Below are positions 6,231 through 33,659 of a stretch of 38,329 nt of DNA, in pieces. A model generated the notes under the pieces. It ran no database searches and was not told the DNA's origin. It saw nothing but the letters and a program-made list of their open reading frames with translations. Numbering within the stretch: the first letter of the stretch is position 1; every line of letters starts with the position of its first letter. This DNA is from a virus, in the IMG/VR virus record IMGVR_UViG_3300030419_002248, positions 1 to 38,329 of that record; one strand, given 5' to 3'. Position numbers and translations under genes: made by a program.

Positions 6231-6392
6231 TTATATTTGGAGTTTATTTATAAGTTCCCCTATTGTTTTCTTTACCATTTTAAGTACACCTATATTAATA
6301 TTTAAATCAATTTCATCGCTTTTGCTTTCCATTGACTCAAGTATTATTAATATACTTTTTATGTAGCTAATAGTTTCCTTAAAGCCTTTCAT
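6231..6392 (-). CDS. Small helical hypothetical protein, last gene of the early operon
   Basis: A 53-residue protein whose ATG overlaps the stop of the upstream nuclease gene as ATGA, the coupling used throughout this operon. The sequence (MKGFKETISYIKSILIILES...) is predicted helical with a central charged stretch and has no recognisable domain. It ends 13 bases from the terminator of the convergent unit. Confidence 0.6.
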   Translation of the reverse strand: MKGFKETISYIKSILIILESMESKSDEIDLNINIGVLKMVKKTIGELINKLQI

Positions 6393-6700
6393 TCGTCTTT
6401 CCCTAATAGCTTAAGTAGATCCAACCAATCATCATATCTCATTACTATGTATGTTTTACCTCTGTTCTCTTTAACAGCTGTGACATCACATGACTCAGGT
6501 ACTTTAATCCAATTAGCTATATGTTTTCTAGTTTTACATTGAACTTTAAATCCACCTACTAAGCAGTCTACATCTTCAGCTTCTCCAAGACTTTTACCAT
6601 TAGAACCATAGGCTCTTACTGCTTTAAATCCTGCTTTCTTAGCTAAATTGACTACTAGTCTTTCAAATCTATTACCTTTGGCTTTGCTTGTTGATGGCAT
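6389..6700 (-). CDS. Hjc-like Holliday junction resolvase / PD-(D/E)xK nuclease
   Basis: A 103-residue protein. The N-terminus KAKGNRFERLVVNLAKKAGF, with E13, followed by D43/D45 in AEDVDCLV and Q54-x-K56 in VQCKTRK, is the pattern of archaeal-type Hjc resolvases and related small restriction-fold nucleases: Glu, a Ser-containing loop, Asp, and (Glu/Gln)-x-Lys. Such enzymes cut four-way junctions before packaging. The length fits a minimal catalytic core. The start is set by AGGAGGTTAA just upstream, inside the 3' end of the preceding gene (29-base overlap). Another endonuclease specificity is possible, because the fold is widely reused. Confidence 0.75.
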   Translation of the reverse strand: MPSTSKAKGNRFERLVVNLAKKAGFKAVRAYGSNGKSLGEAEDVDCLVGGFKVQCKTRKHIANWIKVPESCDVTAVKENRGKTYIVMRYDDWLDLLKLLGKDE

Positions 6701-11992: not shown

Positions 11993-13747
11993 TTAAAGTA
12001 TTCTACCTGTTCTATTAGTATCAACTTTTAATTTACAATTCATTCTTTCTTGTTCTCTATTCTTTATTGTAGTAAGCTCAAGATATTCTATAATACCACT
12101 ATCATTTGGTCTTATAGGTCTTAAGGAAAGAATTTTATTGGCATTATAGGCTACTCTAAAAGAACCTGAAGGAGCTGCTATATTAACATCTCCATGAAAA
12201 GCACTTTTAGATAATTCCCAAACACCTATTACTACACATTTTAGGTCATTAGCTAGATTCATAATACCTTCAGATATATCTTTATCTTTAGATATTTCAT
12301 CTCTAAATCTAGATTTCATTAAACCACAATGATCAATGAATATTACTTCAGGTTCAAATTCCATTGCCTCTAGTCTACGTTTAATTTCCCAAGGATAACA
12401 ACTTTGGTAATCAAATCTTATATGTTCCATATTAGGCAGGCTTCTCTTACCTTTCTTGTAATTTTCTTTTAATTGATGTTCATTCCATCCATTATGTATC
12501 ATTGATAGTCTAGCACCTATTTGTCTTGGAGACATCTCAAATTCCATAAAATAGGATTTTTTCTTTAAGTTATTTAACCAATTTAATAATAACATTGATT
12601 TCATTGACTCTGGAGGAGCAATAAGTAATACAGTTTCTCCTGGATAAACAGGAAATTCTTGTTGATACATATTGCCTATATCTACTGGATCTCTTTCTTC
12701 ACTAAAGAAACTTATTAATTCATCTTCCAAATCGCTAATATTTGTTTCAGACATGCTCTTTTTAGCTTGAAATATCTTGCAATCTGGTGAACAAAATCTA
12801 TCTTTAATTTCAGAAAAGCATCCAAAATGATACCCTTCTCCTTTATTAGCATTATATACAGAATGAAGAATCTTTTCCATCTCACTAGGCTTAAAAGGTT
12901 TATCATTAGTATCTAATACTGTATCCCTCCAATGCTCCATAAATGCTCTTACTGCACTTTCGGGATATCTTTGTCTTAAGTGTGAACCAAGAGTTAAAGC
13001 TGCCTTATGTCTAAATCCATATGGTGCACTTTCCATTAATCTTTGAATACAAACATACTCATTATTTAAAGGACCTGTACCATGTTGTTTAGTGGTTACT
13101 TTATTCTTAGGTAAACTTTTTCTAACATCGAAGATAGGATCTGTCTCTAATTCTTCATAGTCAAATCTATCTCTAGGTTTAATTGCAAATTTATGCAACC
13201 ATTCAGTATTAATATCATTAATCTCAGATATTTTTACTGGAACTTTCCAATAACCTGAAGAAAGCTTCTTTGTATTAGGAACTCTTATTAACCTTACCTT
13301 ATCTATAACAAGAGGATCTGCATATTCATATATTCCTTTCTTATTTAAAGTATGTTTAACTTTAAGATTTAAGTCAGCACAAGGTTCCCATTTAAAGGCA
13401 GTGCTTGAAATATGTATATGAAATCCCTTCTCTCCTGAAAAGTATGTTTGCAAAGGTATGTCTAATAAGTCAATTAAAGCTAAAGCTAAACTTTTTGCTT
13501 GATCTAAATTTGACCCATCTACATCAAATATAAACTCATCAGGCATATAAAGTAATCCTCTATAACCTGATAATGTTTTATTTTCTTTTACAAAACTTAT
13601 TACTTCTTCATCATAGTCCCATAACGACATAAAAGTGTCACTATCTATACCATTAAATGAAGATATTTTACTTATAGGAAAGAAGTGGTGGCGATTTGAT
13701 AAGGATAATGCGAACTCTTTGTAGATTTGTTTTATTTTTGTACTCAT
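11993..13747 (-). CDS. Primase-helicase fusion (AEP-type primase plus RecA-like helicase)
   Basis: 584 residues. The N-terminal domain has archaeo-eukaryotic primase signatures: FDVDG (D75, D77), SGEKGFHIHIS (104-114), and R154 in VRLIRVPNTKK followed by SGYWKVPV. Next come a helical linker and a zinc-like cluster (C310, C319, C323 in FGCFSEIKDRFCSPDC). The C-terminal RecA-fold domain has Walker A APPESMKS (377-384), a variant lacking the usual GxGK glycines, Walker B VIFIDHCG (468-475) and a GVWELSKSA sensor-like segment. It should make RNA primers and unwind the fork. SSB-like and Sak4-like genes lie immediately upstream. Start supported by CTAAGGAATAAT. Confidence 0.85.
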   Translation of the reverse strand: MSTKIKQIYKEFALSLSNRHHFFPISKISSFNGIDSDTFMSLWDYDEEVISFVKENKTLSGYRGLLYMPDEFIFDVDGSNLDQAKSLALALIDLLDIPLQTYFSGEKGFHIHISSTAFKWEPCADLNLKVKHTLNKKGIYEYADPLVIDKVRLIRVPNTKKLSSGYWKVPVKISEINDINTEWLHKFAIKPRDRFDYEELETDPIFDVRKSLPKNKVTTKQHGTGPLNNEYVCIQRLMESAPYGFRHKAALTLGSHLRQRYPESAVRAFMEHWRDTVLDTNDKPFKPSEMEKILHSVYNANKGEGYHFGCFSEIKDRFCSPDCKIFQAKKSMSETNISDLEDELISFFSEERDPVDIGNMYQQEFPVYPGETVLLIAPPESMKSMLLLNWLNNLKKKSYFMEFEMSPRQIGARLSMIHNGWNEHQLKENYKKGKRSLPNMEHIRFDYQSCYPWEIKRRLEAMEFEPEVIFIDHCGLMKSRFRDEISKDKDISEGIMNLANDLKCVVIGVWELSKSAFHGDVNIAAPSGSFRVAYNANKILSLRPIRPNDSGIIEYLELTTIKNREQERMNCKLKVDTNRTGRIL

Positions 13748-13845: not shown

Positions 13846-14394
13846 CTAGAAGGGTGCTGCCTCTGAAGTCATTGTTCCATTAGAAGATTGTTGTTTAGTC
13901 TCCAACCATTTTCTATAAGAATTTTCAGCATTAGCTTTCCAAGAGTTAACATCTTGCTCTGTATAAGTTAGGTGCTCACCTTCACTTACAATAGGAGCTG
14001 GATCTCTCCATCCTCTAATAGCAGTTTTTTCTTCACCATTACTACTTATATATTTACTTTCATAGTAAAATATATTAATAGACATTCCAGCTAATAAAGA
14101 GGCATCATCATCATAAGTAATAATTGGACTTCCTTCCCCATTATCAAGAACTTCTTGTATTCCTGTATGTGAAAATCTAAACCAATTACAAATACGAAAC
14201 TCTTGCTGAGTTTTAGTATTCTTAGCTTCATAAACTCTTATGTTAAACCATTCTGGGTGTTTATCAAAGTATATATCAATATATTTATTCCCATTATAGT
14301 CACCATACTTAGCTTTACTTATTGTTGCTTCTTTCCATCCAGGACTAAGACTAAATCCTGATGGTTTATTTGCAGTTATTGTTCTAATTGCCAT
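13846..14394 (-). CDS. Single-stranded-DNA-binding-like protein (OB-fold/DUF669-like)
   Basis: 182 residues, ATG with TAAAGGAGAAACGA upstream. The N-terminal 125 residues look beta-rich (ATISKAKYGDYNGNKYIDIYF...), in keeping with an OB-fold. A variable linker follows, and the protein ends SEAAPF, like the acidic D-x-P-F tips of bacterial SSB. It lies between the Sak4-like ATPase (11-base overlap) and the primase-helicase, where phages usually encode their SSB or DUF669-type protein. Sequence identity to known SSB is not obvious, so the call rests on context, length and the tail. Confidence 0.6.
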   Translation of the reverse strand: MAIRTITANKPSGFSLSPGWKEATISKAKYGDYNGNKYIDIYFDKHPEWFNIRVYEAKNTKTQQEFRICNWFRFSHTGIQEVLDNGEGSPIITYDDDASLLAGMSINIFYYESKYISSNGEEKTAIRGWRDPAPIVSEGEHLTYTEQDVNSWKANAENSYRKWLETKQQSSNGTMTSEAAPF

Positions 14395-15136
14395 TCGTTT
14401 CTCCTTTAATTAATGTAGACAAACTTTTTGTTTTGCCAGTACCAGGTTTACCAAGAATAAGAATCTTACAATTATCAAATCCTTTCTTCTTAGCAACATC
14501 TAAAACTAATTGATAGTCTTGAGGTATAGCATCATCTAGTAAATCAGTTCTATCTTTAGCATTAGCATATCTTGGAGTATGTCTTGTTCTCCACATATAT
14601 ACATCTTTACCTTTCTCTTTCTTAGTAAATGTATAGAAAACAAAATCAAACCATTTAGATATATCATCTTTAGTAGAACCATCTATATATGGTATTTCCT
14701 CATTTCCTTCATCCATAGATTGAATTTTAGTATGACAAGTTAATATTATTACACCTGGTATTCTCATTAACCTCTCTAATAAATCATCTAATTGCATCTT
14801 TAGTTTTCCCCAGTCTTGCATTTGCATTCCTGGTCTAGTACCAACAATTTTTCTTTGTAACTTTTTAGATAACTCTGAAAATGTATCTATAACAATACCA
14901 TCTATTTCAACATTTTCTTTTAACACTTTCTTATGTTGAGTTTCTACGATATTAATACCAGCGATATCTTTATTAACAGTAAAGGTTCTATCTTCATATA
15001 ACTGACCTATAGTGCTATAAAAGTTATCCCATGTATCTATCTTAAGTGGTGGGAGCCCAAGCATTTTATGGACACGACTCTCCCCACCGAGAGTTTTTGA
15101 ACCATCTTCGGTGTCAAAAAGAAGGATTCTCTTCAT
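14384..15136 (-). CDS. Circularly permuted RecA/Sak4-like P-loop ATPase
   Basis: 250 residues, ATG with AAGGAGAAGTAAA upstream. The body matches phage AAA_24/Sak4-type recombination ATPases: FDTEDGSKTL at the N-terminus, Walker B DGIVIDTFSEL (79-89), MQDWGKLKMQLDDLL, the sensor strand ILTCHTK (131-137), and WRTRHTPRYANAKDR. In those proteins the Walker A loop comes first. Here it is last: CKILILGKPGTGKTKSLSTL, with GKPGTGKT at 229-236, about 15 residues from the end. The segment before it (DVAKKKGFDN) reads like a normal N-terminus of the family. The chain thus looks cut after the P-loop helix and rejoined the other way round. Expected role: single-strand annealing or recombination in replication. 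Confidence 0.7.
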   Translation of the reverse strand: MKRILLFDTEDGSKTLGGESRVHKMLGLPPLKIDTWDNFYSTIGQLYEDRTFTVNKDIAGINIVETQHKKVLKENVEIDGIVIDTFSELSKKLQRKIVGTRPGMQMQDWGKLKMQLDDLLERLMRIPGVIILTCHTKIQSMDEGNEEIPYIDGSTKDDISKWFDFVFYTFTKKEKGKDVYMWRTRHTPRYANAKDRTDLLDDAIPQDYQLVLDVAKKKGFDNCKILILGKPGTGKTKSLSTLIKGETNGN

Positions 15137-15442: not shown

Positions 15443-16447
15443 TTATGTTATAGCAATAGGAGGGCTATAATACATATTATCTCCATCTCTCCATCTTAAA
15501 GCATCTGTGACTGTATTCATATCTATTTTTCTAATCCATGGCTTACCTTCTTTATTGTTTGGTACACCTTCAATATGATATTCTCCTGTTGAGGGATTAA
15601 TCATCTTTAAATATGTAGCAGGAATTTCGTTCTTTGGTTCTAAAGGATCAGGAAATTTGAATCTTAACAATTCATATTTATTACCATTAATTTCATTTTT
15701 ATCAACAATTTCATTGTCAAATGAATTTAATACCTTCTTAATTCCAAAATATTCTAATAAATCACTTCTTATAGCACTATTCTTAATCTTAAATATATCT
15801 TTAGGACTAAGTTTACTATAATCATTTGATTTTTTAGCTTCTTCAAAGAGCTTAACATATTTATTATTTTGATAATTAGATCTGCTTAATGCATTTCTTA
15901 GTAATCTATCATTTTCAATAGTCTTATCCCTTAAGTTATAACATGATTTAGGAACTTTAGAGCATAGATTTGCATTTTCATCAAATATAATATCTTTTTT
16001 ATGATAAGAAGATATCTCTGTTCCATTAAAATTCCATAATTCAGATATTCTACAATATCTAATTTTAAGATTATTCACTATTCCAGTAGAGGCTAATACT
16101 CTAAAAAACCAATTTCTCTTTCCATTATCAGCATAGCATAAAGTATTGCTAAGGTAACTCATTCTTTTTAAGCTTTTCCATTTTACTTTATAACTTTTAG
16201 TACCATTTACTATATTAGGAAGAATCTCAAGTTGATGTTTTTTACTTAGGTCATAATTTCTAATAAATTTTTGATTCATATGATATCCTTTTATTAATCT
16301 TTTAGAGCATTTTATTAACAAAAATCCTTCATATTTCAGATTATTATCAGAGCTTCCTAAAATAATCCTAGATTGGCCTATGCTTGTTTTTGTATCTATT
16401 AATTCATAGATGATTTTTTGATTATTTGGGTTACTATATATTCTCAT
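15443..16447 (-). CDS. DUF6745-like protein
   Basis: 334 residues, starting directly after the TAA of its partner gene. The C-terminal part has a PSTGEYHIEGVP segment followed by NTVTDALRWRDGD, resembling the C-terminal pattern (cPSTg..y...VP...t..eA..w) of DUF6745 proteins. The N-terminal 200 residues are basic and aromatic with no motif I recognise. The tandem placement with a GHxH/HEEH protein recurs in genomes I know of, but neither partner has an established function. Asparagine- and lysine-rich composition is in line with the rest of the phage. Confidence 0.45.
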   Translation of the reverse strand: MRIYSNPNNQKIIYELIDTKTSIGQSRIILGSSDNNLKYEGFLLIKCSKRLIKGYHMNQKFIRNYDLSKKHQLEILPNIVNGTKSYKVKWKSLKRMSYLSNTLCYADNGKRNWFFRVLASTGIVNNLKIRYCRISELWNFNGTEISSYHKKDIIFDENANLCSKVPKSCYNLRDKTIENDRLLRNALSRSNYQNNKYVKLFEEAKKSNDYSKLSPKDIFKIKNSAIRSDLLEYFGIKKVLNSFDNEIVDKNEINGNKYELLRFKFPDPLEPKNEIPATYLKMINPSTGEYHIEGVPNNKEGKPWIRKIDMNTVTDALRWRDGDNMYYSPPIAIT

Positions 16448-16927
16448 TTAATCCACCACATTCCTTGAGACACCTCCGATATGATCCCATTCTCTAACTA
16501 TCTTTACTTTATATATACCACTAGGTAATTCAATAGGATTATGCTCTTCATGTGTTAATTTAGCTTTTACATTTGTATCATTACTATCATTAGTTATCTC
16601 TACATATCTAGGCACATTACCTAATGTACTATCACTCCAACTATGTCCAAATGTATTTATATTTAAGTTATTATTATTTTCATTAAGAAATATGTGTCTA
16701 TGTCCTGTAGCTTCTCCTAATGCTATAACAACATTATTGTCATCATCTAATTTATTAATTTCTTCATTCCCATATATCTTCCTGTTATCATTTTCCTTCA
16801 TAATTTGCTTTTTACCTTTTCTATTTTCCACGAAAACATCATCTCTTTTAATAAATAAAACATCTCCTTGTTGATATTTTTGTAATTTCCAATAATCTGT
16901 TTTATTCTTATTTGTTTTTTGACTCAT
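16448..16927 (-). CDS. GHRH/HEEH-motif partner protein of the DUF6745-like gene
   Basis: 159 residues, ATG with AAAGGAGAAGATA upstream. Conserved-looking blocks are GDVLFIKRDD (21-30), LGEATGHRHIF (70-80), RYVEIT (107-112), LTHEEHNPIELPSGIYKV (124-141) and VREWD. The histidine/glutamate pattern suggests a metal-binding, cupin-like or OB-like beta fold. An asparagine/aspartate-rich loop (about 50-66) separates the blocks. It lies head-to-tail with the DUF6745-like gene with no gap, so the two probably act together. Biochemical role unknown. Confidence 0.5.
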   Translation of the reverse strand: MSQKTNKNKTDYWKLQKYQQGDVLFIKRDDVFVENRKGKKQIMKENDNRKIYGNEEINKLDDDNNVVIALGEATGHRHIFLNENNNNLNINTFGHSWSDSTLGNVPRYVEITNDSNDTNVKAKLTHEEHNPIELPSGIYKVKIVREWDHIGGVSRNVVD

Positions 16928-32767: not shown

Positions 32768-32844
32768 TGTGGCTTGATTATGTATTGTTTGGATTGTTGT
32801 TGTATGGAATTTTTTTTCTAAGTAAACATGTAAAGGATATCTAA
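32767..32844 (+). CDS. 25-residue membrane microprotein
   Basis: Starts and ends in TAATG overlaps with its neighbours (32767 and 32844). MWLDYVLFGLLLYGIFFLSK is one membrane helix with a short basic tail. Exact coupling at both ends supports a real gene, possibly a holin partner. Confidence 0.5.
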   Translation: MWLDYVLFGLLLYGIFFLSKHVKDI

Positions 32845-33659
32845 TGCAAGAGACTCTTGAGTATAATTACGCTATTACTCTTTTAAGAGATTTTGTTAAA
32901 GATAAAGGCTTTATTGAAGTACCAGCTCAATCTAGGTTGAATATAATGTCTGCTTGCGAAGATCCTTCTACTGTTGCAACCTTTAAAATCGGTGGAAAGG
33001 TTCATCCCATGATTCAATCGTCTCAGATGACACTAGAGAATGAAATTCTCCAAAATCAAGACTACAAGGGTGTGTATTGCATGAGTACCAGTTATCGTGA
33101 TGAGCCTAATCCTATTGAGGGAAGGCATTGCTTAACCTTTCCTTTATTTGAAATCGAATCCTTTGGTGGAATGGAAGATATGATAAAGTTTCAAGCAGAG
33201 TTACTAGACTATCTAGGATTTAAGAATCCAAGTGAAGTGTTATATGAACATGTGTGCCTTGAATATGATATAGATATAATAGAAGGCAAACATGAGAGTA
33301 AAATGAGGAAAGACTATGGAGATGTAATATCACTTCAATACTTCCCAGAGAGAGCCAACCCCTTCTTTAATATGAATCATCATAGAGACCATTTATACGA
33401 AAAAGTGGATGTAATTCTGGCAGGTCAAGAAACGATAGGTTCAGCCTCTAGGTCATGTGATAGGCAAAGGATGTATGATAATTTCATGTCAATATCTAAC
33501 GGAGAATATTCTCAAAAGCTATTTGATCTATTTGGCAAAGAGAGAGTCATGCAAGAATTAAATACTTATTTATCATTAGATTTTGTACCTAGATATGGGA
33601 TGGGCATTGGAATAACAAGATTATGTAGAGCTTTAAAGGAGTGTGGTATTTATGGATAG
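32844..33659 (+). CDS. Class II asparaginyl-tRNA-synthetase-like / asparagine-synthetase-like enzyme
   Basis: 271 residues with all class IIb catalytic motifs: motif 2 YRDEPNP followed by TFPLFEIE (84-105), the active-site strand GQETIGSASR (194-203, in place of the AspRS/AsnRS G-x-E-I-x-S-G-x-x-R strand), and motif 3 GMGIGITRL (252-260). QSSQMTLENEIL also fits the AsnRS/AspRS substrate loop. The N-terminal OB-fold that binds the anticodon is absent, as in archaeal asparagine synthetase A, an AsnRS paralogue. It may therefore make asparagine or an aspartyl/asparaginyl adenylate for another acceptor rather than charge tRNA. It lies between two membrane microproteins in the lysis block. Confidence 0.75.
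   Translation: MQETLEYNYAITLLRDFVKDKGFIEVPAQSRLNIMSACEDPSTVATFKIGGKVHPMIQSSQMTLENEILQNQDYKGVYCMSTSYRDEPNPIEGRHCLTFPLFEIESFGGMEDMIKFQAELLDYLGFKNPSEVLYEHVCLEYDIDIIEGKHESKMRKDYGDVISLQYFPERANPFFNMNHHRDHLYEKVDVILAGQETIGSASRSCDRQRMYDNFMSISNGEYSQKLFDLFGKERVMQELNTYLSLDFVPRYGMGIGITRLCRALKECGIYG

Follow-up and report, generated by a model that had tools for sequence, protein, structure and literature searches.

In RecA-like ATPases the order strand, P-loop, helix, catalytic-glutamate strand and Walker B is treated as the signature of the group. In phage HK620 the SSB encoded beside Sak4 ends in NDYPPF, and this tail is needed to stimulate ATP-dependent annealing (PMC5928155). It has also been reported that sak4 genes adjoin an ssb gene in up to 80% of cases, and that the HK620 protein is monomeric in solution (PMC5928155). 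Natural circular permutation of a P-loop NTPase, with the nucleotide site kept, is found in the TRAFAC GTPases RsgA/YjeQ and RbgA/YlqF, in which the motifs run G4-G5-G1-G2-G3 (PMC6912228). No precedent for a permuted RecA-family ATPase was found in the literature covered here, which consisted of open-access titles and abstracts only and left most subscription journals outside its scope.

The window analysed is the whole 38,329-nucleotide stretch of a metagenomic virus record (IMG/VR IMGVR_UViG_3300030419_002248). It contains a gene, P0001, whose product is, as supported by several partly independent tests, a circularly permuted ATPase of the Sak4/AAA_24 family. The gene and its parts are given below; L089 is an ordinary-order Sak4, and n=48 refers to permuted sequences down to 46% identity.

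14384-15136, minus strand: permuted Sak4-type ATPase gene P0001, 250 amino acids, ATG start and TAA stop, span including the stop; based on the translation, the AAA_24 and PHROG_124 matches and the order in 92/92 relatives
15101-15127, minus strand: strand that now forms the N-terminus and carries FDTEDG, residues 4-12; D8, E10 and G12 invariant (n=48), E10 aligned with L089 E60 in the profile alignment
14921-14998, minus strand: predicted beta-hairpin insertion, residues 47-72; not in ordinary L089, from model secondary structure and an alignment gap
14870-14902, minus strand: Walker B strand DGIVIDTFSEL, residues 79-89, with D84; D84 invariant (n=48) and aligned with L089 D104
14549-14560, minus strand: AKDR motif, residues 193-196; invariant in the permuted family, its K and R also kept in ordinary Sak4
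14480-14518, minus strand: former C-terminal helix, residues 207-219, running into the P-loop strand at the fusion point; from secondary structure in the permuted and L089 models
14429-14452, minus strand: Walker A (P-loop) GKPGTGKT, residues 229-236; GxxGxGKT invariant (n=48), matching the start of the canonical profile

The motifs of P0001 thus run FDTEDG (7-12), DGIVIDTFSEL (79-89), ILTCHTK (131-137) and GKPGTGKT (229-236), after which 14 residues remain beyond T236 before the stop. An earlier note on this DNA had pointed to a Walker B preceding a C-terminal Walker A, and this is confirmed. The position of E10 is presumably that of the RecA-type catalytic glutamate (E96 in E. coli RecA). 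In Pfam, residues 2-197 correspond to AAA_24 profile positions 23-195 (E 1.4e-18, 67.9 bits against a curated cut-off of 27), and the start of the profile, where Walker A lies, is absent from this main match. AAA_24 is matched by 48/48 permuted family members (E <= 0.01), and the best PHROG is PHROG_124, "Sak4-like ssDNA annealing protein", with residues 3-213 corresponding to profile positions 65-255 of 382. No GTPase family appears among the Pfam matches at E up to 1, and no second, canonical Sak4 was found in the same viral record, where AAA_24 matches once. Membership of the ordinary family, defined as Walker A, catalytic-glutamate strand and Walker B succeeding each other in one collinear domain, is failed by P0001; because its motif order is swapped, we class it as a permuted offshoot of Sak4 and not as an ordinary member. 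The residues whose conservation is expected of the family (Walker A, the Walker B Asp and an Asp/Glu following the second strand) are all retained. It also fails membership of the permuted TRAFAC GTPases, whose Walker A still comes before Walker B (G3), whereas in P0001 Walker B (79-89) precedes Walker A (229-236); these GTPases are also cut at another site and belong to another branch of the superfamily.

The permutation was analysed with a canonical profile built from 79 ordinary-order proteins (6 from named phages and 73 from IMG/VR), in which Walker A starts at residues 7-105. P0001 matches this profile as two swapped blocks: profile positions 54-237 at residues 1-204 (81.8 bits) and positions 24-48 at residues 218-242 (10.4 bits). 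Rotating the protein in silico turns them into a single continuous match and raises the score from 81.8 to 103.6 bits; when all 250 rotations were scored, the best starts lay at about residues 207-219 (103.0-103.8 bits). The rotated protein with its C-terminal piece shuffled reached a mean of 84.6 bits (s.d. 1.6, maximum 91.4). Rotation increases the score in 67/68 family members, with a mean gain of 17.8 bits, and the corresponding cut costs ordinary Sak4 proteins 56.6 bits. Besides, a doubled profile of the permuted family can be aligned to ordinary Sak4 straight across the join, with no interruption except a three-residue gap (E 4.8e-27). In paired searches of 50,697 phage records at an identical E limit, the native-order protein matched 15 records, none of them covered to 80%, and the rotated one matched 66, with 43 covered to at least 80%. 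The swapped order is not due to chance, because the AAA_24 match lacks the profile start, the order is the same in 92/92 relatives and the rotation gain stands out against the shuffled control.

The viruses carrying the permuted Sak4 are tailed-phage-like and known only from metagenomes. Single-sequence and profile scans of IMG/VR retrieved many relatives, 46-78% identical, with the permuted order over the length of the protein. Among 100 distinct relatives, 92 are full length, all with a C-terminal Walker A (92/92) and none with an N-terminal one (0/92), so the same order that the earlier note wished to see sought in homologues is kept. The order is found as one full-length match, again at 46-78% identity, in more than 100 other contigs from many separate samples. 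In a tree of 62 ordinary proteins and a sample of 27 permuted ones, entered in rotated form, the permuted proteins form one clade (SH-aLRT 100) on a stem branch of 2.62 changes per column, which fits an inherited rearrangement of single origin that is not recent. When a canonical-order or double-P-loop intermediate was sought with the DISKWFDF DNA pattern, 79 permuted open reading frames came up, none canonical and none with both P-loops, apart from 3 truncated matches and 1 unrelated one; no close ordinary-order sister of the permuted clade was found in that search. Cellular relatives were not detected in two scans, at pattern-scan sensitivity, of a set with one genome per species for 84,980 prokaryote species, nor were plasmid relatives of the permuted Sak4 found, and named phages searched in native order yielded only partial matches to ordinary Sak4.

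AlphaFold modelling of P0001 together with 47 relatives gave a pLDDT of 90.8 and a pTM of 0.88, with values of about 94-95 at residues 221-240 and below 50 at residues 246-250 only; ordinary L089, modelled likewise, reached a pLDDT of 95.8. In the L089 model strand 27-32 leads into the P-loop and helix 38-47, followed by strand 54-58; further along come the Walker B strand (100-104) and, towards the chain end, strand 236-238 and a last helix at 242-250. The P0001 model has strand 4-8 near its start and the Walker B strand at 80-84; towards its end, strand 203-205 and helix 208-218 precede strand 223-229, the P-loop and a last helix at 237-241, with about four residues between the old C-terminal helix and the P-loop strand. 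The segment DVAKKKGFDN, which had been read in the earlier note as a normal family N-terminus, is therefore not one: by predicted secondary structure, residues 207-219 are the C-terminal helix of ordinary Sak4. The N-terminal extension that precedes the P-loop strand in ordinary Sak4 is missing from the permuted protein, whose new start methionine aligns just before the second strand, at a place where the ordinary profile favours M. Circular permutation, as proposed in the earlier note, is thus supported by the swapped blocks, the rotation gain, the paired searches, the conservation in 92/92 relatives, the single clade and the order of elements in the model.

In a viral structure library there was one close match to the permuted model, A0A516LUR7 (TM 0.91, 41% identical), and after one permuted relative the best viral structural neighbours are phage AAA/RecA-like proteins at TM about 0.6. 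With a confident model, these neighbours and the ordinary elements in rotated order, the test for a RecA-like fold is met at the level of prediction. Foldseek comparison of the permuted model with the PDB, which aligns in chain order, returned no chain at E <= 0.001, whereas ordinary L089, as positive control, returned 334 chains with KaiC and RAD51-paralogue complexes on top; the blank result is attributed to the fact that a chain-order search cannot superpose a permuted chain. Since ordinary L089 matches the folds of RAD51 paralogues/RadB and KaiC, the permuted protein shares their core by descent, although its chain order is broken. A PDB sequence search with the permuted-family profile found nothing below E 0.01, and most of its weak matches covered the P-loop alone. 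It is likely that the P-loop docks within its own chain, but this is inferred from model confidence, without a distance between the P-loop and D84, and a residue-coupling analysis of the docking was uninformative (effective depth 36).

Two genes of the same module are located next to the permuted sak4:

13846-14394, minus strand: gene of a probable SSB partner, 182 amino acids, ending in SEAAPF; its start overlaps the end of the permuted sak4 by 11 bases, and it is conserved at 237/243 loci
11993-13747, minus strand: primase-helicase gene, next in the module (PHROG primase 1.2e-21, DnaB-like helicase 1.1e-20); same order in relatives

Some contigs were counted more than once among the 243 loci fetched for the SSB-like neighbour. 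Its identity as an SSB is probable, though weak by sequence: several proteins of its family resemble SSB PHROGs (at best 2.4e-4), the profile compared with the neighbours of ordinary Sak4 gives a weak probability of 16.5%, and no match was obtained against the PDB. The last three residues include F or W in 80 of the 89 distinct tails, and the last 12 contain on average 2.88 acidic and 0.28 basic residues. A similar order with ordinary Sak4, SSB and primase is present in Bacillus phage BSTP12. Upstream of the permuted sak4, the frames at 15443-16447 and 16448-16927 (minus strand) have no confident Pfam family, and similar ORFs of like size occupy the same place in relative contig L001. In another relative contig, L003, two genes at L003:637-1815 and L003:1772-2662 lie directly upstream of the permuted sak4: one is ThiF/E1-like (3.1e-22), the other a weak Prok-JAB match (0.00065).

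Compared with described Sak4 proteins (PHROG_124, AAA_24, HK620), the permuted protein shows homology across the entire domain after rotation and keeps Walker A, Walker B, the catalytic-glutamate strand and AKDR; its gene adjoins that of a probable SSB, weakly identified by sequence, with an acidic, aromatic-tipped tail. It differs in the place of Walker A, which ordinary members carry near the N-terminus and the permuted protein at the C-terminus, in the loss of the N-terminal extension and in the extra hairpin at 47-72. The explanation that we regard as likely is a circular permutation of Sak4, of single origin, retaining ATP-dependent, SSB-assisted annealing of single-stranded DNA, the function itself being inferred. 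The cut would lie between the P-loop helix and the next strand, which carries the catalytic glutamate, and the old C-terminal helix would have been joined to the P-loop strand almost without a linker. The chain would then start at the catalytic-glutamate strand and end at the P-loop, so that the ATP site may be assembled from both ends, with K235 and T236 from the C-terminus, E10 from the N-terminus and D84 from the middle. The most likely route would be a tandem duplication of sak4, after which the first copy lost its front and the second its back, with an existing methionine taken as the new start; this route is a guess, because no close canonical-order sister or intermediate has been found. 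Most probably the product would still bind ATP and single-stranded DNA and would anneal complementary strands, the DNA being coated by the SSB that the neighbouring gene encodes. ATP binding and hydrolysis, DNA binding and annealing are all inferred, and the "working" permutant of the earlier note rests on the invariance of ATP-site residues (G229, G232, G234, K235, T236, D84, D8, E10 and G12 across the 48 sequences), without any assay.

It could be argued that the protein is an active, permuted RecA-like ATPase that has given up annealing and works at a different point of replication, for instance as a loader of the neighbouring primase-helicase or a recombination mediator. The added hairpin at 47-72 and the adjoining primase-helicase are in line with this proposal, as is the long stem branch (2.62), because of which the function may have drifted; but sak4 is still paired with ssb and the SSB still has its acidic tip, just as in HK620, where the pair anneals DNA, and we consider a non-annealing role unlikely. 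A different arrangement of an equally real and active permutant would be a C-terminal P-loop swapped between subunits, with ATP sites formed only in dimers or filaments. A terminal P-loop element behind a short joining stretch is, by inference, a usual setting for such a swap, and ATP sites of the RecA family are located at subunit interfaces. The single-chain model is, however, confident through the P-loop strand, and HK620 Sak4 is monomeric, as cited above; this exchange between subunits seems quite improbable.

Nothing but the absence of an assay speaks for the idea that GKPGTGKT stands at the C-terminus by chance or as a vestige in a protein that is not an ATPase. GxxGxGKT, E10 and D84 are invariant, and the C-terminal piece with its flanks matches the start of the canonical profile; a chance P-loop is ruled out by this invariance together with the loss of the rotation gain on shuffling, and there is hardly any room left for an inactive protein. 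In favour of a local misassembly or rearrangement of one contig stands the fact that the window is a metagenomic virus record, but this reading is excluded by the more than 100 independent contigs that share the order, which reduces its probability practically to nil.

If circular permutation of Sak4 is accepted, this would be the first recognised natural permutation in the RecA/RAD51/Sak4 branch, fixed as a lineage of single origin, with an ATP site drawn from two chain ends and a P-loop beside a free C-terminus that possibly allows a new kind of ATP gating; we hold this broader claim with moderate confidence only. A sizeable viral clade has broken the order and yet kept the ATP-site residues, which suggests that the connection leading from the P-loop helix to the strand after it can be dispensed with and makes the clade a natural experiment on folding and allostery of recombinases. 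Annotation misses such proteins, since the main Pfam and PHROG matches of P0001 end short of the P-loop, and more of them could surface through searches with rotated profiles. The permuted annealer and its SSB might also become a recombineering tool, if active.

The free C-terminus beside the P-loop is of variable length and its gene end often overlaps the SSB gene. Counted from the start of Walker A, the tail ranges among relatives from 16 to about 85 residues, and in L071:2995-3909 and L078:845-1789 the part after the P-loop is long and of low complexity. The permuted sak4 of L049 has an in-frame stop 4 residues before the end of the match, right after the P-loop helix (LI*GEK), and this copy therefore terminates even nearer to the P-loop. 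Elsewhere in the window, a small protein encoded at 6389-6700 (minus strand) lies at the Pfam cut-off for a Hjc-type Holliday junction resolvase and also resembles PDDEXK weakly. Among the late genes, the frame at 32844-33659 (plus strand, 271 amino acids) encodes a class II aminoacyl-tRNA synthetase catalytic domain (Pfam tRNA-synt_2, D/K/N type, 1.6e-12).
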